Source: Pyrinomonadaceae bacterium
GTDB lineage: Bacteria; Acidobacteriota; Blastocatellia; Pyrinomonadales; Pyrinomonadaceae
Assembly: GCA_014380365.1 (NCBI GenBank)
Contig: JACMJZ010000019.1
Span: 1 to 64,000, forward strand
DNA length: 64,000 bases
Direction of reading: 5' to 3'
Within the stretch, counting starts at the first letter, position 1, and each line of letters begins with the position of its first letter. The notes beneath the pieces are model-generated. The model was given only the letters and a program-made list of their open reading frames with translations. It had not been told where the DNA came from and ran no database searches. Positions 40,412 through 63,700 of the stretch are shown here, piece after piece. The position numbers were made by a program, and so were the translations under genes.

Positions 40412-40783
40412 TTAATGGAAGGGCCATCGCCCATGGAGGATTGGATGAGCGGCCTTCGAGAGTTGGGTGTTTTTGAGAAGTAGTTTGCGAAGTACTTCGC
40501 CTTTCGCGCTCTCGAGCGCTGCCCGCCCGGGTTCGAAGCGAGACCTTCGATCCGGAGAGCCGAAGGGCCAGTGTGAAGCCTTCTCGTCGCGAAGGTCGAC
40601 TGTGATTGTCACGTCATCGAGGACTCCGGCTTTGCCCTTGGCGCCCCAGAGCAAACCACCATTTATTCCGTGGACTGAAAGCCTGGTGAAACGTTTCCAG
40701 CGTTCAAGACCGCCGTGGGCTTCGATGGCCAACTTCGCGAGATCCGGTGCTGAGACTTCCGCTGGTTCGTAGGTGCTTTTCAT
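40412..40783 (-). pseudogene. Probable truncated hypothetical gene
   Basis: A 123-aa frame that begins well (APDLAKLAIEAHGGLERWKRFTRLSVHG), like the first half of a larger family of about 240-aa proteins with unknown function. After SRFEPGRAALESAKGEVL the sequence becomes unlike the family (LRKLLLKNTQLSKAAHPILHG) and stops. I infer a C-terminal truncation or frameshift. It could still be a short real gene. The start has AGGTACATACA before it, so there is only a weak ribosome-binding site. Confidence 0.4.
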
Positions 40784-40831
40784 TTGTATGTACCTCTCAT
40801 TTGTAAGTTCCGCTTCTTGGGAAAACCGCCC

Positions 40832-41451
40832 TCAATCTCTTTCTTTTTCCATCCATTCGCGAATATATGCAGCGCAGTTCTCAAGCGTCACGCCATCTGC
40901 TTCGCAACGCACGAAAAAGCACACTACGTCGCGATCGACCACGCCAACGTCTTTCAAATCTAAGTTGCGCTTGCGGTCTTCGATGTCGGTGTTTGTTCCG
41001 AACCATTTGACTACCCTCCCATCGTTGTCAAACGACGGAGTTGCACGGAAAAGAAACCACCGATATTCGCCATCGAAGCGGCGCAGGCGTGCTTCAATCT
41101 CACCCGGCTCGCCAGAAGCCAGAACGGATCGCCAGTAATCCTCAAGTCCTTTCCGGTCGTCCGAGTGATGGCAGCCGTCCAGCCCCAATCACGCGCCTCT
41201 TCGGCGGAAAGGCCGGTATAGTCGAGCCAGCGTTGATTGAAGAAGTCAGCGGAGCCGTCTGAACGAGCGGCCCATGCGAGCGTGGGAATTGTGTCAACTA
41301 TAAGGCGAGCGTCTACGAGGCGAACGTCCTGTGCCTCCCGAGCGTGTTCGGAGCCATGCTCTGCGGATGCCATGCCCGGATTATGGTCCCTTTGTGCGAT
41401 TTCCGCGTCCTTGTGCTCCAAACCCAACGAATTCGGATCGTTCAAAACCAA
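40832..41451 (-). pseudogene. Frameshifted PAS-domain remnant
   Basis: Two overlapping minus-strand frames (41011-41451 and 40832-41188) make one PAS domain. The first has PTLAWAARSDGSADFFNQRW and LDYTGLSAEEARDWGW. The second continues as LDGCHHSDDRKGLEDYWRS, GEIEARLRRFDGEYRWFLFR and VVKWFGTNTDIEDRKR. The joint is at GATTGGGGCTGG, where a one-base change shifts the frame. The kinase or output domain expected after the PAS is missing; instead there is an unrelated tail. It is probably the residue of a histidine kinase or diguanylate cyclase gene. It lies next to the tRNA-Ala island's left boundary. Confidence 0.65.
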
Positions 41452-41563
41452 AGCACTGCTGACTCAGTTAGTTGATGTCCAATCGAAAATCGGTGAAGTA
41501 GGCCGCCGATGAAAAACAGATCAGATAATTGCGTGACTGTAAGTGGTTGAGGGTTTGAGGTTA

Positions 41564-41606
41564 TTGGTGGAGCAGAGGAGGGTCGAACTCCTGGCCTCCG
41601 CATTGC
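41564..41606. repeat. Left att-like copy of tRNA-Ala 3' half
   Basis: Identical over 43 bp to 46739-46781, including the CCA end (read on minus), the T arm (AGGAG/CTCCT) and part of the anticodon loop. The two copies diverge just past the repeat, at the first anticodon position: minus-strand T here against C in the intact gene. The rest of the tRNA (D arm and 5' acceptor) is missing here, so it is not functional. Confidence 0.85.
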
Positions 41607-41848
41607 AAACGGCAAAGTTGGCGTTGTGATGGGCCACTAAAAATTCGCCGCTTTGTCACCGACCCCAATAAGAAAGCAGCCACGAACAATATTTTGACCG
41701 CTACGAATTACTACGCAGAAGGTCCCAGTTTGCCGAAGTTTAGCAACGGAAAAATGGGATAATCGAGCGATCTAACTTCGATACCGTTGATTGGAACTCG
41801 GAGGAGGTGATGGGTTGCGCCTCAGCAACGTTAAGTACTTGCGAGCAT
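41607..41848. other. Noncoding island left end
   Basis: 242 bp between the orphan tRNA copy and the stop of the NYN frame. I see no gene, no clear terminator and no repeat. Short minus-strand frames here overlap the NYN C terminus and are not convincing. Confidence 0.5.
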
Positions 41849-43393
41849 TCACAACGCCGAGAAAGTCTCCCTAGACGCTGACTTGGCTTCGATGCTTGAT
41901 TCTTCCTCGCCAAAGACCAAGTCTTCCAACCATCCAATCTGAATCCGATCTGGCCCCGTCAAATAGTACTTATAAACTTCATTAAGAGCTTTTCGGGTTG
42001 CCAAAAGAACAACGTTCTTACCTTGCTCCTGAAGTGTCTTGATGACTTCACCATAGTCACCATCCCCAGTGGCGATAACGTAAACGTTAATTTCAGGGTT
42101 GTTTCGCAGAACATAGTGAATCTTTTCTCGGAGAACATGATCAGAAGCGTTATCCTTATCCTCTCCGGCAATGTCCGGCCAATAACGGCATCGCTTGAGG
42201 ACCATTTGATCCCCGGAAAAAAAAGGCTTTTCCCAATTGGCCACGGCCCACCTTTGTCGAGGTTCTCCGTAACGAGAAGCTATGTTCAGCAAGCGGTTAC
42301 CTAGATCAAAACTCTCAAGCCGCCCTTTGAATTTCTCAGCCTTAGCCCGTGGCATGTCTCGATGAAAATCCATTAACCTGATCTTTACGTTTTCCCAATC
42401 CAAGAGTAACGCGAGAGGCTGATTAGGAGCATGGGCTTGGGGTTTTCCTCCGCTCTCCTGAATTGCGCGCTGCATAAGACTTGCGAGATACCGTTCCAGA
42501 AAAGCACCTCGTATCCGCCAACGAGGATCGTTTCCTTCCTTTACTTCAGTTAGAACTTCCAAGTCGCTCATTTCTTCTAGATATTTCCCTAAGGTGCGTA
42601 CTCCCCCCTTCTGACAAACTTCCGCAAGTCTCGATTCGGCGATGCCAAGTCGGCTTTCGGCTTGATTCTGCAATATGAGAAACGCAACTTGCCGATGAGT
42701 AGTTGTTACCAATCCCTCCTTCTCGTTCCACCATAGGTCGTTTACGCGCTGGTCGGTAGCAAGGACCAAGTCGGCAGCCCGATCGATATCGTTAGGACCT
42801 ACCAAGCGTCTACGCTCCTTATTCAATCTCTCGGTCGCCTTTTCAGCTAACACTTGTGTTACCCAAGGGTGCCCTTCGGTCATATCCCACAGTCGGTCCA
42901 GAGCCTCCTGGAGCCAAATCACACCATCGTTCATCACGGGCAACGTGACAATCTTCTCCATCGCGTCTTTGCTAACGAACGATATGTTGTATGGTTCCAT
43001 ATTGGCCCACATTGTATGTTCGTAACGCTTGCGCATCACTGAATAGGATTCTGATCCAGTACACACAAGAAACACATCACCTTGTAGCTTCTGGATTTTC
43101 CCGCGGAGCCATGAAAGATAACCGTCAGCTATTGGATCTTCGGGATCCGCAATGCGCTTTACCAAAAACTGAACTTCATCGAAACAGACTAGTACGTGTC
43201 TTCTCGCCGTTTCCCCGCGAAGATTCTCTAAAAAGGCATCAAAAACAATCCACGGAGGATCGAGCTCAAAAACATCGCGGCTTGGACGAGTTATTGACAG
43301 TTTCGAAAACTCCGGCACCTTTCGAACTTCCGCAATTGATTCACGAATGAGCTGGCCCACAAATTCTATGTCGCTCATCTTTGGCTTGTTCAA
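41849..43393 (-). CDS. ATPase C-terminal half with NYN nuclease domain
   Basis: 514 aa if started at the weak TTG at 43393; the frame is open from 43408. It has no good ribosome-binding site and lacks a Walker A. Residues 66-75 (HVLVCFDEVQ) are a Walker B with D72-E73, and FLVCTGSESYSV is a sensor-like strand of an AAA/STAND-type ATPase. A winged-helix region is likely at about 230-305 (TTHRQVAFLILQ, TLGKYLEEMSDLEVL). From about 326 to 480 there is an NYN (PIN-like) nuclease domain: LLLDWENVKI (D332), ASDHVLREK (D418) and ATGDGDYGEVI (D444, D446), the acidic metal-binding set. The Walker A is in the upstream frame, which overlaps by 53 bp, so I infer one split ATPase-nuclease. Alternatives are a re-initiated second subunit or a frameshifted pseudogene. 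Confidence 0.75.
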   Translation of the reverse strand: MNKPKMSDIEFVGQLIRESIAEVRKVPEFSKLSITRPSRDVFELDPPWIVFDAFLENLRGETARRHVLVCFDEVQFLVKRIADPEDPIADGYLSWLRGKIQKLQGDVFLVCTGSESYSVMRKRYEHTMWANMEPYNISFVSKDAMEKIVTLPVMNDGVIWLQEALDRLWDMTEGHPWVTQVLAEKATERLNKERRRLVGPNDIDRAADLVLATDQRVNDLWWNEKEGLVTTTHRQVAFLILQNQAESRLGIAESRLAEVCQKGGVRTLGKYLEEMSDLEVLTEVKEGNDPRWRIRGAFLERYLASLMQRAIQESGGKPQAHAPNQPLALLLDWENVKIRLMDFHRDMPRAKAEKFKGRLESFDLGNRLLNIASRYGEPRQRWAVANWEKPFFSGDQMVLKRCRYWPDIAGEDKDNASDHVLREKIHYVLRNNPEINVYVIATGDGDYGEVIKTLQEQGKNVVLLATRKALNEVYKYYLTGPDRIQIGWLEDLVFGEEESSIEAKSASRETFSAL

Positions 43394-46316
43394 AGCAGTT
43401 TCTATGTTTCAAAGAGAGTGTCAAGACCTCGCGCCCACAGTGTTTCCCTAAATGCTCTATAAGTGAGGATTTGCCGACTCGTCGGATACCATTAACAAAA
43501 TAAAGCTTCCGTAAGAAATCACCAGCAAAGGCTTCCTGTAAATCTAGGAGTTCGTCATGGCGTCCGTGAAACAGGTCTACTCGATCAGCACCTACAGGTG
43601 CACCAGTCACATACCGAACCGTAACAGGAACAGGCTTTCGGATCGTTCCGACCGGTATACGACAATTAACGTGATTTGTAAGTTGAACACCTCCGGCCGA
43701 GTAAGTGACATGAACCCTTACCGACACCTCGTTCTCAAGATCGCCGATCACATCAAATGCACACTCAACTATTTGCTTCTCGCCAGGATTGAGCCTAAGA
43801 ATCGGCATCCCTTCACCCGAGAATCGAATTCCTGAAGAAGGCGACGAAAATACACTGTTGATATTCCGCATCTCTTCCAAGCCTGGATTACAAAGACGAG
43901 CGAACATCCGGCTTGCGTATCTAGTTTTGTCAGGAGCCCCAGCCTCAAAGACAAATTTCAGTGCGTCGGGTGGAGTAATCGTGATTTCGGTCGTTGCACC
44001 CGTTCTTACGCACGTGTTCTGGATGACTCGTTCGCATGCTTGTCCCAAGCCGCGAATCTCGTACGGAAGGCTCTCTCGATTGTTTCGTAGCGCCCCAAGT
44101 TGAAGCTTCATCCTTTGCACCAAATCCTGAGCCTGTGTACCGTCGACTCCATTACTGAATTCCTTTGCAAGTCGAATAACCTCGCGGATCGAGCTGAAAA
44201 GAACCGAAGAAACATCTGGTCGCTTCATTTGCACAGCGCTGAGAAGCCGCTCTGCATTTCCGGCGCCTCCAGACAAGGTCTCGACCGCGCTGACTCCGGA
44301 AAATGTTCCTGCAATCTCTTGTATCACCTTGTCGGCTTCAATGAGAGTCGCGGTCGGGAGATTCACTCCGTCCTCTCGTATCAGCCCTGTTTCTATAGAA
44401 TCAGAGGTGAAGGGCTTTGTTGGAACCGTCGATGTCGGAACGGCGTCAGTTCGTGCTGGAGGCTGCGGATATAGCGATGTTTTGGTTAACCGCTGCTCCC
44501 AGATCCGGAGGTCACTTTCGGACATACCGATTCGTTGCCAGCTGCTCTTGATCATGCTGAGGGCATCTTTTTCAAAGCCATTTCGCTGAGACCAGTTTAA
44601 GATGAATTTCAGTTTTCCAATTTTCCGATCAAGATCAGTCTTGCGGTCGCGTACCAAACAATCCCAAACACGTCGGTGACACTGCCAAGCAGCTTCTTTA
44701 TTGTCAGCCTCTTCGTGCAGTTTCGCGGCACAGTCCCAGTTCTTGGAATAAAATCGCCCCTGTTGATCTGATAAGCGTTGATGGAACCACTCTATACCTG
44801 CGGGGACCATTGAGTTCTCCATGAACTCTCGAGTCAATTGATCCAACTCACCGAAACTTAAACGTTCCTTGGGATCTGGGAACTCATGGTCCGGATCGCG
44901 AAGGATTCTCCCGACACGACGGAAATGATCACCCGAAAGCTCATCATCGCCCTGCAACAATTCAGCGGCGTAGAGTGCCGCTAACAGTTGGGCTTCGAAG
45001 TAATACGACCGACCGAGTAACTCCGGCAAGATCTCTTCTCGATCCTGATCCAGTGACCACAAAAGAGATAATTCGAAGACTTCGGAAGGGTGATACTGAT
45101 TCTTTAGAATGGGCACCAGCAGATCTAGCGATTCATCGGCGCGAGTCGGCAACCTACGTAAAGCACACGCGAGATTCCAATTGGCCGTCCAATTTGATTC
45201 CTGTCGGTAATATTCTGATTGGATAACGTCCTCAAGGAGTTCTATCACATCATGCGTATCAGTCTTTTCACCAAATCTGGCTAGAGCGTAGGCGTACCAC
45301 TCTTTCGCAGTGGTATTGTTGTTTCTTCTAAAATGAATGTCACTGAACTTGCGTAGGGCGGCGGTTCCATCCCGCAATAGTAGATCGTGGGCTTCGACAA
45401 AATATCTGTCAGGGTTGTGTCTTGTGCCTAATTGAGAGATTGGTTCTCGAAAGTCCGCCTTCGCATCTAAACGAAGGCGAAGATTCTTAACCAGAACATC
45501 CTCAACTTCAGCGAGAGAACTTCTCAGAATCTCAACATTGCCTTCTTCAACGGCCGCCTTGATCTTCTTCCAAGATTCCGGCAACAACAGTTCTGATAAA
45601 TCCTGAGGACGGTGAAGCACCCGACCGGCGGTTCGAGTTGCTGTAGGTGCTACATGTGCCCCAATTTCCTCCCAGCGATCTTGAACCTCAGCGAGTCTCT
45701 GGGGAACCTCCAAAGACAGAACGCTTTCGATGTTGTCAGTGATGAACCGTTCGTGAAGAGCCTTATCCTTCTCTATAGTGGAGCGAACGCGTTCCAATTC
45801 TGACAACAGAATTTCATTGATCATCAAAGCAAGTTGCGGAGGTATGGTTCCCCACGCGCTAGAGACTATGTTATTTAGATTTTCATGAACCAAACCTGCA
45901 TCAGTTTCTCCTGTCCGCACCCGCTCGATCTCCGTCATAATCAGCGTTCTCAAGGCGGCCGGAAGCACTTGACGCATCTGCTTGTTGGGACCTGTCGAAC
46001 TTATGGTAGCCCTAAATATTTCGTGAGCGGACCGAAACAGGGCCAAGCTCTGTTCCGGCGTTGCGCTCTTTGCTAATATTCGTGCCAGTTGTTCAACCGC
46101 GAACGCTAGAGTAACTAAATTGCCGTTCTTGGATGGATCCTCAATTTCTGCAGAGGTTGGCGCGCCCTTCTTTAGGGCTTCTATGGCGGTTAGATTTTTC
46201 TCCTGGTGTTCCGCAGGAAAGTCTTCGAGGCTCGACTCCACTCTTTCAATCAATCCAGGTATCGACCCCATTAATTCTTCAGTTGACAATGGACGCCAGT
46301 CCGTAAGGATACTCAT
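43341..46316 (-). CDS. Helical-repeat protein ending in an ATPase Walker A
   Basis: 991 aa with an excellent ribosome-binding site (AGGAGG, 46324-46329). Residues 1 to about 600 are almost all helical, with repeats of TPR-like appearance (AKEWYAYALARFGE, NWTANWNLACALRRLP, CAAKLHEEADNKEAAWQCHRR). A Pro/Thr-rich linker (about 640-680) and a further helical part (680-790) follow. About 800-915 is a beta-sandwich (RMFARLCNPGLEEMRNINSV, LNPGEKQIVECAFDV). Then YVTGAPVGADRVDLFHGRHDEL leads into Walker A GIRRVGKS (943-950), the usual opening of an AAA_16/STAND ATPase. The frame stops 41 residues after the Walker A, before any Walker B, which is in the next frame. The complete ATPase would need a +1 shift between 43408 and 43341. 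I do not recognise the N-terminal part. Confidence 0.8.
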   Translation of the reverse strand: MSILTDWRPLSTEELMGSIPGLIERVESSLEDFPAEHQEKNLTAIEALKKGAPTSAEIEDPSKNGNLVTLAFAVEQLARILAKSATPEQSLALFRSAHEIFRATISSTGPNKQMRQVLPAALRTLIMTEIERVRTGETDAGLVHENLNNIVSSAWGTIPPQLALMINEILLSELERVRSTIEKDKALHERFITDNIESVLSLEVPQRLAEVQDRWEEIGAHVAPTATRTAGRVLHRPQDLSELLLPESWKKIKAAVEEGNVEILRSSLAEVEDVLVKNLRLRLDAKADFREPISQLGTRHNPDRYFVEAHDLLLRDGTAALRKFSDIHFRRNNNTTAKEWYAYALARFGEKTDTHDVIELLEDVIQSEYYRQESNWTANWNLACALRRLPTRADESLDLLVPILKNQYHPSEVFELSLLWSLDQDREEILPELLGRSYYFEAQLLAALYAAELLQGDDELSGDHFRRVGRILRDPDHEFPDPKERLSFGELDQLTREFMENSMVPAGIEWFHQRLSDQQGRFYSKNWDCAAKLHEEADNKEAAWQCHRRVWDCLVRDRKTDLDRKIGKLKFILNWSQRNGFEKDALSMIKSSWQRIGMSESDLRIWEQRLTKTSLYPQPPARTDAVPTSTVPTKPFTSDSIETGLIREDGVNLPTATLIEADKVIQEIAGTFSGVSAVETLSGGAGNAERLLSAVQMKRPDVSSVLFSSIREVIRLAKEFSNGVDGTQAQDLVQRMKLQLGALRNNRESLPYEIRGLGQACERVIQNTCVRTGATTEITITPPDALKFVFEAGAPDKTRYASRMFARLCNPGLEEMRNINSVFSSPSSGIRFSGEGMPILRLNPGEKQIVECAFDVIGDLENEVSVRVHVTYSAGGVQLTNHVNCRIPVGTIRKPVPVTVRYVTGAPVGADRVDLFHGRHDELLDLQEAFAGDFLRKLYFVNGIRRVGKSSLIEHLGKHCGREVLTLSLKHRNCFEQAKDERHRICGPAHS

Positions 46317-46738
46317 GACAAGACCTCCTACATCAAATCTTCACCCTAATGGTTCCGACAGAATCCTTCGTAACTCCGAAATAGACCTTAACCGAAATTT
46401 ACGTGACGAAGCCCGGCAGGTGTCCGGGCTAAGAACTGGCCGAGACTAGCTAGTTGAGAACTCTCAGGGTAACAGGAACTAATTTGAGCCTTGTTGCGCC
46501 GTTGCAAGAGGATAGCTCATCTACCTCTGTTTGGGAACGTAAACTGACCATTTCGCAGCGGACTTCTCGCAAGGGTGGAACGTCAAATCCGCCAGCGACG
46601 AACTTCGCCAAGCGGCCGCGCCATTGCTTGAGCTATGAACGGATTTCGCCTCGGAGTGTGTGAAGTATTTTGTCCAGAACGTTCATGGCCTTGCGACGTT
46701 GTGGCACGGCGAACAGTGGCGCCGTAAGCCGTTGATAT
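46317..46738. other. Noncoding right end of the island
   Basis: 422 bp between the ATPase start and the tRNA 3' end. It includes an AGCCCGG/CCGGGCT hairpin at 46410-46430. I looked for an integrase remnant in minus-strand frames and the plus strand and saw none. The promoter of the island gene must lie here, but no clear -35/-10 pair is visible. Confidence 0.5.
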
Positions 46739-46781
46739 TTGGTGGAGCAGAGGAGGGTCGAACTCCTGGCCTCCGCATTGC
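46739..46781. repeat. Right att-like copy inside tRNA-Ala
   Basis: The 3' half of the intact tRNA-Ala gene, from one base past the CCA end to the middle anticodon base. It is the partner of the left copy at 41564-41606. Confidence 0.85.
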
Positions 46782-46815
46782 GAACGCGGCGCTCTGCCAA
46801 CTGAGCTACTGCCCC
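46740..46815 (-). tRNA. tRNA-Ala (anticodon CGC)
   Basis: A complete cloverleaf on the minus strand, 76 nt including an encoded CCA. The acceptor GGGGCAG pairs with CTGCTCC, the D arm is GCTC/GAGC, and the anticodon stem CCGCG/TGCGG holds loop TTCGCAA with anticodon CGC. The T arm is AGGAG-TTCGACC-CTCCT. It lies 90 bp downstream of, and in the same orientation as, an alanyl-tRNA editing gene. Confidence 0.95.
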
Positions 46816-46832
46816 ACGAGGAAGAGAATACA

Positions 46833-46863
46833 GTTTCGAGTTTCGAGTTTCAAGTTTCGAGTT
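46833..46863. repeat. Short tandem repeat TTTCGAG
   Basis: Four near-identical 7-bp units (TTTCGAG, one as TTTCAAG) directly upstream of the tRNA gene. It is low-complexity and has no evident function. Confidence 0.75.
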
Positions 46864-46907
46864 GGCCAGCCAAGTAATCGGTGAAATCTGCGGAATCTGT
46901 GGGTTGA

Positions 46908-48119
46908 TTATTCGGATAACGAGCTGGCGGCGATGTTGATTGCTTCCTGGAGCTTCTCAACATTGTGCCCACCGCCTTGTGCCAGGTCGGGCTTGCCACC
47001 GCCGCGTCCATCAAGCATTGCACACGCTTCACGCATGAGCGCATTCATGTCGCCGACGGTATCCGCGGATTTGGCGAACACCAGGCGGGCGGTTTCCTCA
47101 TCTCGGGAACCGAGCAACGCGATGGTTCGTGGATGACTAATCAGCGCGCGGGCCAGGTGTTTTAACGACTCCGCATCGCGATTCTGGAAGACGTGGGCGA
47201 TAACCCGCGTGTCCGCCGCGGTCGGAGGGGCAGCAGCTATCAGGTCATCCGCTTCGACGCGAGCGGCAATCTCTTCAAGTGCGCGCACGCGTCGATGAAG
47301 GTCCTTGTTCTCTTCAAGCATTCGTGCCGTCAGCTTCGCGGCGTCATCGCGCGCGGAGCTGAACAGAGCGGCAACGGCGCGCGCAGTTTTGTTTGCGCGG
47401 CGATAATCGGCCAGTGCCCGCCCTCCCGCGAGAAACTCGATTCGAGTTAACCCTTTGGCGCGTTCCCAGGAGCGCACCGCAATCATTCCGACCTCACCGG
47501 TGCGAAAGGCGTGTGTGCCGCCACAAGGCGTCAGATCAAAACCTTCGATTTCGATCACGCGTAGCGGCCCTCCGCGTGAAGGCTCTTTTCGGAGTTGCAG
47601 GCTGCTCGCTTCTTCAGGCGTGACGGTCTTGATCGTAATCATACGATCTTCCCAAATGACATTGTTGGCGAGTTCGACTGCGCGCTCGATAGCCGCATCA
47701 GTTGGGTTGCTTAACTCGACGTCAATTTCGCACAACTGCTCCAGCACACGGAAACCACGCGTGGGTGCATTGAATAATGTAATGAACGCTTGCGAGAGAA
47801 TGTGCTGGCCGGTGTGTTGTTGGATGTGGTCGAGGCGTCGCGGCCAATCGATCCTGCCGGTCACTGCTGCGCCAATCTCCGGCGCTCGCCCCTGAATCAT
47901 GTGCAGCACGTTCTCATTCTCGTCGTCGACACATTCGACCACGCGCAGGCCATTCAGCGTCCCGGTGTCGCTCGGTTGGCCGCCGCCAGTCGGATAAAAG
48001 GCTGTGCGATCGAGAGTAACCGCAGTCCAGCCACTAACGCGCTCAGTTTTGTCAGTCACCTGAGCTGCAAACTCAATCAGGTGAGAATCGTTGTAATAGA
48101 GACGCTCGGTTGCAGGCAT
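46908..48119 (-). CDS. Alanyl-tRNA editing protein, AlaX type with DHHA1
   Basis: A 403-aa trans-editing protein that hydrolyses mischarged tRNA-Ala (Ser or Gly). It is the editing and C-terminal part of AlaRS without the synthetase core. The N-terminal barrel has DRTAFYPTGGGQPSDTG. Zinc ligands are H102 and H106 (QHTGQH) and C199 and H203 (CGGTH). A coiled coil (about 255-300) follows, then DHHA1 with GRGGGKPDLAQGGG near the end. This is the long AlaX-II/L form. The start is the ATG at 48119. The tRNA-Ala gene is the next gene downstream on the same strand, a pairing that makes functional sense. Confidence 0.94.
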   Translation of the reverse strand: MPATERLYYNDSHLIEFAAQVTDKTERVSGWTAVTLDRTAFYPTGGGQPSDTGTLNGLRVVECVDDENENVLHMIQGRAPEIGAAVTGRIDWPRRLDHIQQHTGQHILSQAFITLFNAPTRGFRVLEQLCEIDVELSNPTDAAIERAVELANNVIWEDRMITIKTVTPEEASSLQLRKEPSRGGPLRVIEIEGFDLTPCGGTHAFRTGEVGMIAVRSWERAKGLTRIEFLAGGRALADYRRANKTARAVAALFSSARDDAAKLTARMLEENKDLHRRVRALEEIAARVEADDLIAAAPPTAADTRVIAHVFQNRDAESLKHLARALISHPRTIALLGSRDEETARLVFAKSADTVGDMNALMREACAMLDGRGGGKPDLAQGGGHNVEKLQEAINIAASSLSE

Positions 48120-51703: not shown

Positions 51704-54700
51704 TTACTGCCCAGCCCGGCGTCGATACTCACCCGAGGTGATGAACGCCTTGACCATCTCGGCGGCGACGAAATCGCCGTTGAACTGATTCAGCTTGGCC
51801 AGCCAGAAGTCGTAGCCGGTATGGTCTGAATCAGGCGCTGCATTTGGATTGCGCCGCAGATATCCGAAGTACTGCATCAGCACAAAGGCCCGGTTAAATT
51901 CGGCGTTAACCAGATCCGAATCTTCCGCCACCGCCCGCAACACCTGGGCCCGCGTCTTGGTTGACGTTGAGAGATCGCTAACCAACTGATTGCGTTCTGC
52001 CTGCGACAAAGGATTGCCGGCATTGGCGTTCAGCTCGTCTACGAAATCCGCCGCTGTCATCCCCACGGGATAGTCTGTCGTAAACCTGGCTCGCTCGACG
52101 AACCGAGCGACGAATGCAGCCTTGTTGTTTTCCAAAGCGGCTTCCCAGCCAGTTTGTCCGACTATTACACCGAGCCCGATCTCCTGCGTGTCCAGTAGAA
52201 ATTCGCTGAACCTTACGACGGGTACCGGGAGCGTGTGCGCCCCGCCGTTGGTCGAATTGCCGGTCGCGTCTCCGTAGGCGGCTTTGTAAAGTCGTTCCAC
52301 GAAATAACCGGTGCCCTGGAATTCGATGGAGAGATAGAAGGCCGCCGAGACGTGGATGCGCTTGTTATCAATGCAAGCCTGGTCTGTACCGCAGGAAGTG
52401 ATCTGGTTGGTCCAGAAGGCGAGGCCACTCGCATCAGGCTCGCGGTTGAGAAAGTCGTGATAATGCTGACGGACAAAGTTTTCCGCATCATCGATTGGGT
52501 TTGTCGCCGGCTCGACCGGATCGTCGTCAATGGTCAGCGTTGCGGTTGCCGGTACGCCAAATACGGCGCCGCCGGTCAGGTTCGAGAGCGTCAGGGTTAG
52601 CGCTTCGGGTCCTTCAAGATAATTGTCCTGAGAGATCAGAACCGCGAAGGTCTTGGAAGTTTCACCAGCCGCGAATCGCAGCGTGCCCAGCGCCGTGGTG
52701 AAATCGCAGCGAGGTGAAGCGAAGCCGTTAACGGTTGCGCAGGGAACTACGGTGGCGGAGTTGCTGTCATCCGGAGTGGCATAGTCAACGGTTACCGCGC
52801 CTGAAGTGTCACCGGTCCGTTCGACGGTGACGGTCACGAAGCGCGAGTTTTCGGTAGTGTTGTAGGAGGCAGCGCTGAATCTGACGATCCCGCCCGCGGC
52901 ATCATCGTTGGTAATGGTTCCAGTGGCCGAACCAGGACTGGCGGCGTTGTAGCCCGTGCCGGCAGTCACCGTCAGGATTACGGTCTCATCCGATTCCCCG
53001 CTGGTGTCAGTGGCAGGGTCGATGGTTACAGCGGCGGTCGAATTTCCCGCGGCAAAATTGACCGTACCGCTAATTCCGTTAAAGCTGGCGGCGCCTGTCT
53101 GCGTGTAGTCGGTGCCGAAGGCGGCCGTACCGGAGACTGAGAAGTTCACTGTTAGCGCGCCCGTGGTCACGCCGTTGCGCGTGAAGGTGTAGACGAGATT
53201 CGGGACGCCATCTTCAGCCACCGAGCCCGGTGAAACTGCGACGGTCACGTCCGTATCGTCGGTCGTAATGGTTCCGGTAGCCGCGCTGGGGCTGGCGACG
53301 TTGTAGCCAGTTCCGGCAGTCACCGTTAGGACGGCCGTCTCATCCGATTCCACGGTGGCGTCGGCTGACGGGTCGAGGGTCACTGCGGCGGTCGAGTTTC
53401 CCGCGGCGAAATTGACCGTACCGCTGGTTCCGTTAAAGCTGGCGGCGCCCGTCTGGGTGTAATCGGTGCCGAAGGCCGCGGTACCGGCAACCGAGAAGTT
53501 TATGGTTAGCGCGCCGGTGGTCGCTCCATTGCGCGTGAACGTGTAGATGAGATTCGCAGCACCATCCTCCGTCACCGACGAAGGCGAGACCGCGACGGTT
53601 ACATCTGCGTCGTCGTTTGCAATGGTTCCGGTAGCCGAGCTGGGACTGGCGACATTGTAGCCAGCGCCGGCCGCGACTGTCAGGATTACGGTTTCATCCG
53701 ATTCCACGGTCGAGTCGGATGCCGGATCGACGGTTACGGCGGCGGTGCTGTTTCCGGCGGCGAAATTGATCGTACCGCTGGTTCCGTTAAAACTGGCGGC
53801 GCCGGTCTGAGCGTAATCGGTGCCGAAGGCGGCAGTGCCGGCAACCGAGAAGTTGACGGTCAGCACACCCGAGGTGACCCCCGTACGCGTAAAGGTGTAG
53901 ACGAGATTTGCAGCTCCATCCTCCGCTGTCGAGGAAGGTGAAACTGCGACGGTCACGTCCGTATCGTCGTTGGTGATGGTGCCGGTGGCCGCGGTAGGAC
54001 TGGCGTTGTAGCCGGCGCCGGAAGTGACCTCCAGGATCGCCGTCTCGTCCGATTCCACGGTGGAGTCGGCTGACGGGTTAATGGTTACTACGGCGATATT
54101 GCTTCCAGCGAGAAAGGTCACCGTACCGTTTGAATCGCTGAAGGAGTCGGCGCCTGTCTGCGTGTAATCAGTAGGGAAGGCCGCCGATCCCGAGACCGCG
54201 AAGTCGACGGTCAGCGGGCCGGTGGTCACCCCATTGCGCGTGAAGGTGTAAGAAAGATTCGAGGCTCCATCTTCTTGCACCGCCGCAGGCGAAACCACCA
54301 CCGTCACGTCGGTATCGTCGTTGGTGATGTTGCCCTGACCAAGAGCGTCGCCGATGGTGGCGTTGGTCGGGTTCGACAGGTTAACGGAGAACGCCTCATC
54401 AGGTTCAACCGTCGGGTCACCATTAACCGTAACCGTGAACTGCTTGGTCGTTTCTGACGGCAAGAAGAGCAAGGTCGTAGTCGGGATTGCGCTGAAGTCT
54501 GGCGTACCACTGGTCGACTCAGCTGTCCCATCAAGCGTCGCGTAATCCACCGTCGCGTTTAGTGCTGTGCTGCCGGTCTTGGTAACCGTAAACACATAGT
54601 CCGTTGTTTCGCTGTCGCCCTCCAGATGCGTCACGTCGTTTATCGTGAACGACGGCGGAGGGTCGTTATCGGTAATCGTCAACACCGCCGAGTGGGGATC

Positions 54701-57700
54701 AGCTTGCGCCTGAAGCGAATCGTCGTCGCCTTTTGTCGCGTTAATTACGGTCGAACCCAGCGAGAGCAGGACCGTTTCATTGCCCTCATAGACACTGTCG
54801 TCGTTAATGGTGACTGTGACCGTCTTGTTGGCAGTCTCGCCTTCTACGAAAGTAATCGATTCACCGGGGACTGCCGTGTAATCGCTGCCTGCGGTGGCGC
54901 TGCCATTACTGGTCGAGAAGGTGGTGGTGACCGAACCGTTGCTGCCGCCAACGCGCTTCACTGTAATCGAAGCCGTCACCCCAGCCTCGCCCACCGTGTA
55001 AGTTGCGTCTGTGAACTGAATGTCGCCTGCGGCACCTCCGATTGAGCCGTCGGTGATGATGGCGCACTGCGAGAATTCCGACGTGCTCGAGGAAGCGCCA
55101 GTCGACGTCGCCGTGGCGGTAATAACGTCACCGATATTCAGCAGCGGCGTGGGGTGGAAGCTGAACGAAACGTCGCCGTTGGCATCGGTTGGATCAGTTG
55201 TGATAGAGGCGAGATAGGTCTTCCCTTCGCCATTGCCAGACGTGTCGCATGCAGGACTCTGATAGAAATCAATAATGAACGTCTGGGGTGCCAACGGGTT
55301 CACAGTTGGCGTCGAGTTTAAAGTTCCGCTGATCGTCCGCGTGCTGCCCGTAACCCGGGCCACAGTAATGATGGGGAAGTTTTGCAGGTTGTTTGGACCG
55401 GTGTCCGTATCCATTGCATCGTTTGCTGTGACACCGTCCGTGCCGAGGTCAATACCCATATTGTTCGCGGTGGCGCCGCCATTCGAATAAATCGAGTTGC
55501 CGCGGATGGCGTTGCCCTGGGCGGCGGTGGTGGTCAGGTGTAAGCCGTCGCCGCCGTTAAAGGCAATGGTATTACCGTCACCCGCCTGGGTGCCGCCTAT
55601 CGTGTTGAATACCGCACCGCCGCCGGCGAAACTGATTCCGTTGCCGCCGTTGCCAAGCGTAGCAATGGCGTTGGCCTTTGTTCCGATCAGATTACCCAGC
55701 ACCAGAACGCTGTTGGTGCTCGTGAATGCGACTCCATCGCCGTCGTTGCCGGAGATAAGGTTGACGTCAGCGGGTGTAGATCCACCGATGGTCGCGCTGC
55801 TGCCGGTGTTGTTGATGCCATGGAGGGTGTTTCCCAGATCGAGCGTGCCACTCACGTCCGTGCCGATGTAGTTGCCAACCACGCTGTTGTTGGTTCCGCC
55901 CTGAAGGTCAAGGCCATGGCTGGTGAAACGATTGACGACCAGGCCGTTCACGCTTGAGGTGCTGGTGTTTAGGGTCAGACCTGACGCGCCTGATCCTGCG
56001 TTTTCGCCAGTCAACTCGAGTGTCAGGACGGCATCGTTGCCCGCCGCAGGAGTATTAGCCGAAGCGCCTGTCTGGCTGTAGCCATCAACCACCACGCGAT
56101 GCGTGATCGCCGGCAGACTCGACTCAGGACGAATCGACCACCAACTGTGCGGCCAATCCGGATCAATTGGATCGACTGCCGCCCCGACGAGTGTTGAGTC
56201 GTCGGCAGCAGTAGTTGTTGCCACATTCGCCAAGGTTACCTGATTGGCGACACCGTCGTCCGTGTAATAGAAGTGCCTCGGGTCGGTGGCTGGGATGTCG
56301 AAACTGATGCCGATGGCGTCAGCGCCGGGACTGCCGCTGACCGCCACGATCACTTCACGCAGGCTGCAGTGCGCGAGATTACATGTCCCATCATTGACAT
56401 CATCAGTGGTGTTGACGGTGAGCGACGTGCCGGGTGAATCGTCGTTCTGGATAGTTCCGCGACCCTGGCTGTCGTTAATCGTAGCCTCACTAGCATTAGA
56501 GAGGTCCACGAAGAACGTCTCGTTAGCCTCAACATTAGCATCGCGGCAGACAAGGATCGTAATCGTCTTCGTAGGTTCATTGGGCAGGAAAGTAAGCGAG
56601 CCGATTTGTGACACATAGTCGACGCTGCCGCCGCAGGCTCCGCCGCCGGTTGCCGCATTGGTAACGCCGTCCGCGGTGCCGAAATCAACGGTCGCCGTCA
56701 CCTCAGTGGCGCCGGTCCTGGTCACGGTGAAGACAAAGTTGGTGGTTGTGGCAGGGCCACTGGTCCCCTCGTTAGCGATCCTATCGCCGATCGACAGCGT
56801 CGGCGGCGCATCGTTGTTATTGATCGTTCCAGTAGCCGAATGATCGGGAGAGTCGGCAGGCCCATAGCCGGTGCCGGCGACGACGGTCAGAATCACCGTC
56901 TCGTCGGTCTCGTAAATGGCTTCAGTTACCGGATCGATGGTCACGGTGGCAGTGGTGACGCCATCAGCGAATTCCACCGTTCCACTAGATGAGGTAAACG
57001 AAGATGCGCCAGTCTGTGTGTAATCCGCAGGGAAGACGGCGGTGCCGCCCACGGAGAAGTTGACTGTAATCGCGCCGGTGGTAACGCCGGTGCGGGTAAA
57101 CGTATAAACCATCACCGGGTTGGTCAGCTGGTTGGGCGGATCATCTTCGGCGATCGGCGTCGGTGCGACGGCGACTGCGATGTCGGTATCGTCGTTTGCG
57201 ATCACGGCGCTGGCCGTGTCCGGAGTGCCAACGTTGTAGCCGGTGCCGGCCACGACCGTCATGTCCACAGTTTCATCCGGCTCCACGTCCGAATCGGTTG
57301 AGGGGTCAACAGTTATCGTGGCGGTAGTGCTGCCGTTCGGGATCACGATCGTGCCTTCGAGTGCGTCGTAGGTCGCCGCTCCGGTCTGACTGTAATCATC
57401 GGGGAACAAGGCCGTGCCGCAGACGGTGAAGTTGACCGTGATATCGCCCGCGGTAAGCGGAGTACGCGTGAACGTGTAGACGAGATTTGGCCCGCCGTCC
57501 TCGGCTGTGGTTGCGGGCGTCACTGTCACGCTCACTTCCGTATCGTCGTTGGTAATTGTGCCAACGCCCTGGTCGGTGGTGGTGGCGTTGACCGGACTTG
57601 TCAGGTTGACGAAGAACTGCTCGTCTGACTCGATGGTTAGATCACCGTTGACCTGAACGAGGAAATGCTTCTCCGTCTCATCCGGCGCGAAGGTGAAGGG

Positions 57701-60700
57701 GGTGCTAGCGCTCGTATAGTCTGAATCAGCCGTCGTGGCCGAGTTGTCGGCAGTGGCAGCAGTCACCGTGATGGTTTGATAAGACGGGTTCGACAAACTC
57801 ACTGTGAAATCGTACTCGGTGGTACCGGAGTTTCCTTCCGGATGCGTCACGTTGTCGATCAGGATTGTAGGCTGCGTGTCGTCGTTCGTGATCGTCAGCG
57901 TCACCGGGTTGTCGCCGGCAATTGCAGCGCCGCCCTGAGCATTTACGAGCTCGATGCTCACCGTCTCATTCAGCTCAAACTTGGTGTCGCCATTGACCGT
58001 GATGGGAATGTTCCGGTTGGTATCGTCGCCATTGGCCCAGGTTAGCGTACCGTTCGCTGCTGAATAATCTTCACTGGTTGCTGTGCCGTCAGTGATTTCA
58101 TAGTCGACAGACACCGCGCGGTCGGCGCCGCCGACGCGCTGAACCACGATATTGACGACGTGAGTGCCTGAGTTGGTTTCGGTGTCATTGGTGTTGGGCG
58201 CATTGGCCGCCGCAAATTTGATTTCGCCGAAAGCGATCGCCACTGCGGATTTGCACGCCGAGAACTCCGAGGTGTTGCCCGCGGAGTCAGTAGCAGTCGC
58301 GGTAACGACATCGTTTGCGTTTAGCGTTGCGGGATTGAACCTGAATGCGCCGAGGCCGTTGGCGTCGGTGGTTGTGCTCCTGGAGCCGAGATAGGTTCGA
58401 CCTTCGCCGTTCCCTGTCGGATCGCATGTGCCCGCCGGACTGGAATAGAAATCAATGGTGAAGGTCTGACTGGGCGTCGAGTCCAGAGTGCCGCTGATCG
58501 TGTTGGGAGTGCCTACGACAACCGCCGCTATCACGGGGAAGTTTTGCAGGTTGTTAGCGCCGGTATCGACGTCGTCGGCTGCGCCGTCGTCGTTGGCGGT
58601 GACGCTGTCAAGGCCGAGGTCGATACCGAGGCCGGTGTTCGAGTAAATGGAGTTGGCGCGAATCACGTTGCCGGTGCCGGATTGTATGAAGACGCCCTTG
58701 ATACCGTTGTTGGCAACCGTGTTGGCTTCGCCGGCAGCTGTGCCGCCGATGACGTTGTTGTTAGCGTTAACCGTGTGGATGCCGGCCTGGCCGTTCCCCA
58801 AAACTGCGCCGGCGCTGTTCGTGCCGATGAAGTTGCCCTTGATAACTGTGCTGTCACCGTTAACGCGAATACCGTCCTGGCCATTGCCGGCGATAACATT
58901 GGCTTCAAGAGCCGTAACGCCGCCGATGACCGTGTTCGGGCTGCTGATAAGTCTAATGCCGTCGCCCGCATTTGGGATCGTCGCCGTGCCTGCGGCGTTA
59001 GTGCCGATGTAGTTTCCCTTAAGGATGTTGCCGGTGGCGCCGGTGCCGGCTACCTGGATACCCTGCGCACCGCTCGTCGTGCCGCCGGAAATGACATTGC
59101 GATCAGCCGCGGTCGTGCCGCCAATGGTGTTGGTGCTGGCGCTACTGAGGTGAACACCATGCGCGCCATTGCCCGCCGTCGATGTGCCGGTGACGTCCGT
59201 GCCGATGAAGTTGCCGGCGACGACATTGTTGGTGTTGGACGTCAGGCGGATGCCGTCTAATCCAAAGCGGTTGACGATCAGGCCGCGCACCGAGCTGAGC
59301 GTCGCACTGAATTCAAGGCCGATGGCGGTTGGCCCCGCGTTCGTGCCGTCCAGCACGATCTTCAGTGCCGCGTCGTTGCCCACTGTTAGCGTGTTGGCAG
59401 AAGCGCCCGTCTGCGAGTAGCCGTTTATGTTCACCGGAGTGTCGACGGCTGGCAGCGCCGACGTGGGCTGGATGGTGCATACGCCGGTGAGCGAGTTGCA
59501 GCCGGCGTCGGTCGCCGCCGGGATCGCAAAGGTGATGCTGTTCGTGTCTGAGATTGCGTTTGCATTGGTGATCGCTTCGCGCAGCGAACAATCATCCAGA
59601 GAGCAGAAGCCATCGTTTGTGTCGTCGGTCTTGGTGACCACCAACGTGGCGGGAATTGGATCCTCGTCCGTGATCGTGCCGGTAGCCGCGCTAGGGCTGC
59701 CGACGTTGTAGCCAGTTCCCGAAGTAACGGTAAGGATGACGGTCTCGCTCGGCTCGTACGAAATATCTGTAGTCGGATCGATTGTCACATCAGCCGTAGC
59801 GTTGCCGGCGCCGAAGGTTACCGTGCCGGTGGATGAGGTAAAGCTCGCCGCACCGCTCGCCGTGTAGTCAGAACTGAACACCGCCGTACCGCCGACTGAG
59901 AAGCTGGCGGTCAGCGAACCGCTGGTGACGCCGTTGCGGGTGAACGTGTAAACCAGATTCGGCACGCCGTCTTCAACCACCGACGTCGGCGCCACCGTCA
60001 CGCTGACTTCGGTGTCGTCGTTGGCAATCGTCAGGGTGGCGGGGTTCGTGCCGCCAATGCTGGCGCCGGTCGCGGCGCTGAGCGTCAGATCTACGATCTC
60101 ATTTGCCTCGACAGTTGTGTCTCCGTGAACGGTGACCGTGAATGTCCTTTCGCTGCCGTCTCCGTCCGCCCAGTTAAAGTCGCCAGAAGCGGAGTCATAA
60201 TCCGATCCTGCGGTAGCCGCGTTAGTCACGCCGTCGCTGGTCGCGTAATGGACTGAGGCGGGACCGTCGCTGCCGCCAATGCGCTGAACGGTGATCGTGG
60301 CCGTATGCGTGCCAGTGTCCTGTTCGGTGTCGTTATAGTTGACAGCACTAAACTGAATGGTCCCCGGCGTCCCCGCAACCGCAGTGAAGCAAGCCGAGAA
60401 TTCCGAGGTGTTCCCGCTAGCATCCGCAGCCGTGGCAGTAATTACATCTCCGACGCTGAAGGCAGTTGCCGAATAGAAAGTGAACGACACGTTGCCGCTG
60501 CCGTCAGTATTGCCCGTCAAGACATTTCCCAGATAAGTCTTGCCTTCGCCGTTGCCGGAAGCGTCGCAGGCAGGGTTGGAGAAGAACTCAATCGTGTAGC
60601 CGGAGGTGCTGCTGACTGTCGTGTTCAGCGTTCCCGTGATCCTATAAGTCGTGCCCGTGACTTTCGCGCTGGCAAGTACCGGGAAGTTTTGCAGGTTGTT

Positions 60701-63700
60701 GCCGCCATTGTCCGTATCGCCTGCATCGTTGGGCGTCACCCCGTCAAAATTCCCATCGGGCGGAGGTGACAAATTAATACCCAGTGCCCCATTCTCGAAG
60801 AAGGAGTTTTGCGTGATCCGGATGTTCAGATGGTTGTTGCCGGGAACGCCGCCGAAGTAGTCAGGCTCGTCGCGGAACCCATCGCCGCCGTTGTAGGCGA
60901 TGATGTTGCTGCTGATCGTGTTGTTTGCGAAATTGGTGCAAACCGGTCTGAACCCAATCCCGCTATTGCCTACATTGCTCGCACCGGTGCGGTCGGTGCC
61001 GATCTTGTTGTTCGTAAAGGTACTGTTCAGGACGTCGCAACTGGAGAGGCCTATACCGGTGTTGCCCGAAATCAGATTGCCGGAGATCAGATAGCCGCTG
61101 GTCACACCGGCGGAAGCCCCGACTCCCAGCCCGGAAGCATTGGCAACCGCCGCCGTGCCCGCCGCATTAGTACCAATGTAGTTATTGAGAACCTGGGCAT
61201 TGTTGGCCCAAACGACCACTCCCGTGCTGCCGAAGCCGTTGATCACCAGATTGGCTATCACCGTGTTCGTGGCGCCGCTGCTCGCGTAGAACCCGCTAGG
61301 TGAACCCGAAAGCAGGCTACCGTTGATCACAACTTCCGGCCCATTCGCATTCGTCTCACCAGTGAAAGTTGTCTGTGAAGCGCCGTCGATCGTGACTCGT
61401 TGCGTAATTTCCGGAAGTGCCGTCGGCGTCGGTTGAATCGTGAACACTCCCGTGACTGCGCTGTAGCCCGGGTCCGCCAGCGGTATGTTGAAGGTGATCG
61501 TGCTCGTATCAGAACTGAAGTTCGCCGCGTTGATCGCCTCGCGCAAACTGCAATTGCCCGGTAGACACACGTTATCTGTGTCGGCAGTCTTGGTGACCAC
61601 CAACGTGGCTGGTGGACTATCGTCGTTGGTAATGGTGCCGGTGGCTGAACTGGGCATTCCGACGTTATATCCAGAGCCCGGGGTAAGCGTTAGCAACACA
61701 GTCTCGTTGGCTTCATAGTCCGTATCCACCGCGGGGTCGATCGTCACTACGGCCGTGGAGTTGGTCCCGGTGAAGGTGACGGTGCCGCTGGTCGCGCCGA
61801 AGGTGGCGGCGCCCGTCTGCGTGTAGTCCGTGCCAAAGGCCGCCGTGCCACCCACGGTAAAGTCCACCGTCAGCGTTCCAGTCGTGTTGACGGTGCGCGT
61901 GAAAGTGTAATCGAGATTTGTCCCGCCATTTTCCAGGACAGACGACGGCGACACCGCCACGCTCACGTCCGCGGCCACCACGGTCAGCACTACGTCATTG
62001 CCGTTCGTGCCGCCGACGTAAGTAATCGTCGCGCCGAAGGCTGAGCCGAGGAAGTTGGGAATAGTCGCTCCCGGCGGCAGGCCGTTGAACTCGCCTGTGA
62101 TCGGATCAGAGTCATCGTTGTTGACGATGGTAAAAGTCTGGCCGGCGGCGGGCGTGTGCGAGCCGCTGAGCACAAGGGTGACGCCGGTGATGTTCACAAT
62201 CCCGGCGACGTTGAGTTGGGTGTATTGCGTATCTACCGTCAGGCCATCGATGACGATCGCCAGATCGCTGCCGAATGACAAGGTACTGGCAGTTACATCC
62301 GTAGATGACTTTACGGGCTTCACTGCCGCGGGCGAATTGCCCGGATCGAGGAGCAACGTGCCGCCGCCCGTGTTCACTTGACCACCGCTGATGATGACAT
62401 CGCTGCCGCTCACCAACTGCATGTTTGTGCTCAACGCGCGGGTGATGTCAGCACTGACGGTGATCTGGCCGCTGTTGGCATCGCCGAGGTTGAGCGTGCC
62501 GGCGGTGATTCGATCCAACTCTGCGTCGGTCAAGCCAAGAGTTCCAGTCGCATCAGCGGCGCCTAAATCAATGGACCGGCTGTTGGTTTTCTGGCGCAGC
62601 GTGACGGTATTGGCCCCCGCGTTGATAGTCTCCGTGCTGGCGATGTTGATCGTGTCAGCGATGAAGGAGTTGCTCGCCCCGGTCAGCGTTATTGTCGTGG
62701 GGATGCCGAGCCCGATAGTGATCCCGGTGCCGACGGCGGGATCCGTGCTGCCGGGGGTGCCGGTCATAGTCAGGTTGGCCGTGCCGGTAGTCGTGATGGC
62801 CGACTGGTCCTGTACCTGAATGCCGTGATTGATGGATCCCGTGGTGTCGATGGCCGTGCCGGTAAGCGCGATGTCGCCGTTTACGGAGGAAACGGTACAG
62901 ACTCCACTAATGAGGACGCCTCGATTCATTTCGCTGCCGTCTCCGCCAGTGCCCACTATGGTTATTTTGGCGGCGCCCGCAGCGGTTACGTCGGCGCCAT
63001 TCACCATATTCACCCCGATGTGGGTTGAGCCTGTCCCGCTGCCACCTTGACCGGTGATTGAGATATCGCCCGCCGCCGAACTGATCTGACTAGAAAACAT
63101 CGAGACTCCATTATTCCCAGTGGTGCCGCTTCCTCCGGTGCCATTTAGCGTAATTGTTCCCGCTCCTACGGCCATGCTCGTCGAGGAAATCACGCCGTCA
63201 AACGCGCTTATGCCGGTGTGAATTGCCGTAGAGGCGTCCAAGCCTCCTTTGCCGGTCAGGTTAATTGCACCCGTGCCGGAAGTGGTGAGCCCCGCGTCGA
63301 AGAAACTAATCCCCATGAAGTTACCGGCCGTTGTACCGGCGGCATTCGCCTCAAGCGTAAGAGCGCCGTTCACGACACTGATACTCGAGCCGGTTTGGAA
63401 GGTGATATTGCGTGCGGTTCTTAGCGAGACCGTGCCGGTGCCTGAGGTAGTTAGATCGCTGGTCGAAGATGGCAGACTGATCGTGCCCGTGGCATAGGCT
63501 GCCAGATTCTTGTTGGCTGCGAGAGCCAGGGGACCGGTGAGCCCGATCGTGCTGAAAGGATTCGCGACCGAACCAATCGTCAGACTGGCATCGAGATCGG
63601 GTGTGCCGTTGAAAGTGAGCGTGTCGGCCGGGTCGCCGCGGTTGATGGTTACCGAGCCGGACGGGTTCATGAAATCGGTTTGTTCAAAAGTCGCGCCGCT

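Follow-up and report, generated by a model that had tools for sequence, protein, structure and literature searches.

The 64,000-nucleotide stretch of DNA that we analyzed (the window) very likely contains a site-specific island at tRNA-Ala(CGC) that has lost its integrase and whose single gene, encoding an ATPase-NYN protein, is now frame-broken. We postulate that the island (41564-46739) entered by tyrosine-recombinase-mediated, site-specific recombination at the anticodon loop of the tRNA gene, and that integration would have rebuilt the tRNA and moved its original 3' half 5.2 kb away. Loss of the integrase, which abuts the tRNA in relatives, would have left a recombinase-less element between two attachment sites, decayed or similar to a cis-mobilizable element (CIME). 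The integration reading is based on the repeat, a step in GC content, an element-like tail beside the tRNA and use of the same site by relatives, and not on an empty version of the window's own locus. A preliminary description of this DNA had proposed site-specific integration at the tRNA, and the recurrent orphan copies, the integrases in relatives, an empty and occupied pair in a sister genus, and the GC step all support that proposal. The island appears to be real and site-specific, but of an ordinary kind: integrase-less and probably decayed.

The intact tRNA-Ala(CGC) gene (46740-46815, minus strand) is the only tRNA that ARAGORN detects in the window, and we take it to be the rebuilt target gene and the tRNA-side end of the island. 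Its displaced 3' half (41564-41611, minus strand), which would be the distal attachment site, has the orientation of the intact gene. A repeat search identified 41564-41611 and 46739-46786 as direct repeats of 48 nt (98%) spaced 5175 bp apart, consisting of 43 nt of exact identity, one mismatch and 4 further matches. The exact 43-bp copy noticed previously is therefore confirmed, and extended to 48 nt with one mismatch. Exact identity over 43 nt rules out a chance origin of the repeat. A search of the 4.98-Mb genome found no other comparable 3'-half copy, the runner-up being 36 nt at 86%. Aligned with the copies in relatives, the window copy begins at the anticodon loop and extends through the encoded CCA. 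This extent is the footprint expected for integration at the anticodon sub-site, the sub-site used by 2083 of the 3919 islands in Islander (PMC4383910).

The sequences next to the two marks are also informative. The tail directly 3' of the tRNA (46715-46739, minus strand, AATATCAACGGCTTACGGCGCC...) resembles the element-side tails beside the tRNA in integrase-bearing relatives; 1 of 200 shuffles reached the observed pooled score, which for a short sequence is moderate evidence. The tail past the distal copy (41540-41563, minus strand) would be chromosomal sequence that flanked the old target; it is similar to the tails at tRNA-Ala(CGC) elsewhere in the genus, with a pooled score reached by 0 of 200 shuffles (again a short sequence and moderate evidence). 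The distal inner end of the island compared unconvincingly with the element ends of relatives (14 of 300 shuffles reached the pooled score). Because that end lacks clear similarity to these element ends, we do not name a parent element family.

The composition of the DNA changes where the repeats are. GC content is 0.49 inside 41564-46739, compared to 0.56 in the left flank and 0.57 in the right flank, and GC3 of the two cargo reading frames is 0.48-0.49, compared to 0.57-0.72 in the neighboring genes measured. The compositional change coincides with the repeat positions, and the DNA between the two marks is foreign in composition. No integrase was found between the two copies, in agreement with the preliminary description. 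A non-coding gap of 423 bp (46317-46739) separates the cargo gene from the tRNA, and comparison with relatives indicates that this is where their integrase lies. Sixteen integrase sequences from the genus, used as queries, detected no integrase remnant in the gap. We infer that the integrase was lost through decay.

The island shares several properties with those in Islander (PMC4383910), including an intact tRNA with a same-orientation 3' fragment on its 3' side, an anticodon-centered site, and a size greater than 2 kb. In contrast to those islands, it has no integrase between the marks. The published Islander filter, which calls for an integrase inside, would therefore reject it, and we classify it as an integrase-less island and not an active one. 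More generally, such elements escape island finders in which an integrase is mandatory. CIMEs are defined as having both attachment sites and no integration or transfer genes (PMC5704250), and integrase-less islands at ssrA in Dehalococcoides have likewise been read as CIMEs (PMC3146451). From its sequence, the window island resembles a decayed element of this type: it is bounded by retained attachment sites, has no integration or transfer genes, and shares its site with integrase-bearing elements, and there are tandem arrays in relatives. It differs from CIMEs in that it is very small, with a single gene, and in that we do not name its parent element.

The cargo is encoded on the minus strand in two reading frames. 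ORF1 (43341-46316, 991 aa) has a long N-terminal region followed by the first portion of a STAND-like AAA ATPase with a Walker A motif (GIRRVGKSSL). ORF2 (41849-43393, 514 aa from a TTG) contains the Walker B motif (VLVCFDEVQF), the rest of the ATPase, and a C-terminal NYN domain (ORF2 residues 327-467, about 41993-42415, minus strand; PF01936, E 6e-8, above cut-off). ORF1 stops soon past Walker A, and ORF2 starts ahead of Walker B. Nine related ATPase domains from the phylum were used to build a profile. Positions 8-75 of this profile align with ORF1 (up to ~43404) and positions 83-369 with ORF2 (from ~43372), placing a +1 reading-frame change inside the ATPase domain at 43372-43403 on the minus strand. 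A read-through version gave one continuous alignment to the profile, which scored 134.5 bits, whereas the separate pieces scored 102.9 and 24.5 bits. Two long relatives (1632 and 1493 aa) have the ATPase domain in one frame. Because the profile runs unbroken from ORF1 into ORF2, the two are one gene of ~1500 codons split by a frameshift. Of the ATPase-NYN unit described earlier, the two domains stand; the division into an ATPase gene and an NYN gene does not, as the profile spans both ORFs.

The cargo has few recognizable relatives. Searches of genome contigs, viral contigs, plasmids, phages and PDB sequences found no close ones. ORF1 had no matches in 59 relatives or in 396 genomes of the phylum, and no relative of its N-terminal region was detected among the genomes, phages and plasmids searched. 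No similarity was detected between the part of ORF1 preceding the ATPase and the relatives L177 and L183. ORF2 had distant matches only, to the ATPase or to the NYN domain. Pfam families AAA_14 and AAA_16 matched the ATPase below cut-off only. AlphaFold without an alignment gave a pLDDT of 39-40 and no usable model.

The frameshifted cargo gene is probably a pseudogene. Among the explanations for the break in the reading frame, mutation is the likeliest and an error of assembly or sequencing, in which case the gene would be intact, is second. We regard such an error as unlikely, while giving it some weight. The break is near short A and T runs, and the genome is a draft of 34 contigs. However, RNA polymerase subunit genes and other long genes in the window are uninterrupted, as is an open frame that exceeds 4000 codons, and these intact neighbors indicate that the assembly is not generally error-prone. 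The very long frame (51704-64000) contains repeated Calx-beta-like segments (by inspection) and runs past the end of the window.

It is quite improbable that the break represents programmed +1 frameshifting into one protein, or that the two frames encode two subunits, with the system intact and regulated. Both frames are long and otherwise open, and the intact long genes nearby would fit such regulation. However, inspection of 43372-43403 did not reveal a canonical +1 shift motif, a convincing start for ORF2 is lacking, relatives with a single frame have an unbroken ATPase domain, and DNA nearby also looks decayed.

We suspect that in the intact ancestor of this gene, ligand binding to the long N-terminal region, the presumed sensor, would switch the STAND-like ATPase, and that the switched ATPase would release the C-terminal NYN domain to cut RNA in a conflict-type response. 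Sensing, RNA cutting and a role in conflict are suggested by the likeness of the protein to bacterial conflict STAND NTPases (PMC8195603, PMC7159879), which likewise are very long proteins with a central P-loop ATPase of the AAA_14/AAA_16 type and a nuclease domain fused at one end. The window protein differs from these in that its effector is C-terminal, its copy is frameshifted, and it is called no more than STAND-like here, with no clade named. Like NYN RNases (PF01936), with which it matches above the Pfam cut-off, the NYN domain has the motifs expected of an active site (LLLDWENV and ATGDGDY, by inspection). Unlike them, this predicted RNase domain is fused behind an ATPase. Because the reading frame breaks inside the ATPase, the window copy is probably inactive. 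Our analysis thus points to one candidate ATPase-NYN conflict protein, of which the copy in the window looks broken.

The tRNA-Ala(CGC) gene, with its anticodon-loop sub-site, is a heavily used integration site in this little-studied family. With the tRNA as query, we searched 16 genomes of the genus, and nine genomes other than the window's carry additional orphan 3'-half copies. When aligned, the genus copies have a sharp start within the anticodon loop or adjacent to it, and their other end is the encoded CCA. Orphan 3'-half copies also recur across a sample of 119 genomes of the family, with few per genome, and nearly all of the family fragments are 3' halves that begin near the anticodon loop. 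In each of the 10 genomes with tRNA and copy on one contig, the copy is 3' of the tRNA and in the same orientation, at a distance of 3.0-52.9 kb. If side and orientation were random, agreement in 10 of 10 would have a probability of ~1e-6.

A comparison in a sister genus documents occupied and empty states of the site. One genome (G199) has a 42.6-kb island at tRNA-Ala(CGC). The sequence beyond its distal copy aligns with the sequence after the intact tRNA in G222 from the first base past the CCA (86% over 655 bp, then 90% over 3478 bp), and with that in G230 starting at base 4. Occupied G199 and empty G222 and G230 provide a clean comparison at the same tRNA. For the window itself, the preliminary description had predicted related genomes in which the sequence left of 41564 comes straight after the tRNA; neither the genus sample nor the family sample contained one. 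Searches of the window's genus with the AlaX gene and with the pirin gene, an ORF and DNA of the left flank found tRNA loci and no matching junction. The left flank from 40.3 to 41.56 kb looks like gene debris and is not syntenic in the genus; at 40412-41451 it includes a short ORF that has no Pfam match and a PAS domain whose parts lie in two overlapping frames. Further left is a conserved MarR-pirin-DoxX-YceI block, which in G004, G006 and G007 is on contigs other than that of the tRNA.

Relatives also have integrases at this site. In several of them a tyrosine integrase gene is directly after the tRNA, 10-46 bp from its end, and reads towards it. The integrases of G418, G455 and G491 are whole (367, 370 and 427 codons, respectively; 10-18 bp from the CCA), and those of G001 (in two frames) and G010 and G015 (truncated) are broken (17-46 bp away). 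G453 has a tandem arrangement (L227, contig C262) of tRNA, integrase-less unit, 3'-half copy, and a second unit with an integrase. This second unit has ~950 bp in common with the integrase region of G455. In G005 and G002, remnants of integrase C-termini are found beyond the copies. Given the broken integrases, the tandem and the remnants, both tandem accretion and decay happen at the site. A single tRNA gene in this family is therefore documented with elements that carry an integrase, elements that have decayed and elements that lack an integrase, as well as with an exact pair of empty and occupied sites. In G015, a stretch with a 3'-half copy inside (G015:C5:356865-424341), which also has integrase matches, and a piece with the tRNA near a contig end (G015:C4:1-4354) match in orientation. 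The two would fit one island of ~72 kb, provided that the contigs join there.

Small integrase-less units recur between tRNA-Ala(CGC) and a 3'-half copy. For example, a 4.6-kb island (L228; G022:C36:13205-17738) encodes a HerA-like ATPase and a DNA methylase, and a 3.0-kb island (L229; G029:C44:92103-95074) encodes a single HD-CE/HATPase protein. A 17.7-kb segment from tRNA to copy (G004:C27:11780-29408) has two very large toxin-complex-like ORFs (by inspection) and no integrase. The recurrence of such small units (G022, G029 and the window island) is the only part of our findings that might go beyond the routine.

Such units could be cargo modules that normally depend for their movement on integrases encoded by other elements at this tRNA, in which case the absence of an integrase would be their usual state and would not reflect decay. 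The site would then host recurrent minimal, conflict-type modules that move in trans, and the window would contain an undescribed STAND-like ATPase-NYN one. The units in G022 and G029, the larger one in G004, and the integrase-less unit in tandem with an integrase-bearing one in G453 are what such modules would look like. However, the same cargo was never seen at different tRNA copies, the broken integrases reveal decay at this site, and no integrase for the site was demonstrated in the window's own genome. We therefore consider movement in trans rather doubtful, both as a general property of the site and for the window island, and favor loss of the integrase. We reject the idea that a dispersed tRNA fragment, with no relation to the intervening DNA, accounts for the 43-bp match, since fragments are indeed present in many family genomes but are few in each, are almost all 3' halves starting near the anticodon loop, lie 3' of the tRNA and in its orientation in all 10 same-contig cases, have matching empty sites in one case (G199), and in the window coincide with the GC step.

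A role in defense, proposed for the cargo in the preliminary description, is plausible by analogy. PADLOC found only weak P-loop matches to described anti-phage families (E 0.007 or worse), and the cargo of other tRNA-Ala(CGC) islands is mixed. The islands in G010 and G455 have type I restriction-like genes (by inspection), and the cargo in G453 includes acetyltransferase, subtilase and GGDEF-EAL genes. Because of this mixture, the site is not reserved for defense genes. A 41.8-kb island at the same tRNA (L219, G017:C23) opens with contractile-injection-system-like genes (by inspection). Many genomes of the genus have an AlaX-like gene adjoining the tRNA. In the window, this putative alanyl-tRNA editing gene is directly beside tRNA-Ala(CGC) (46740-48119), an arrangement that is kept in several congeners.
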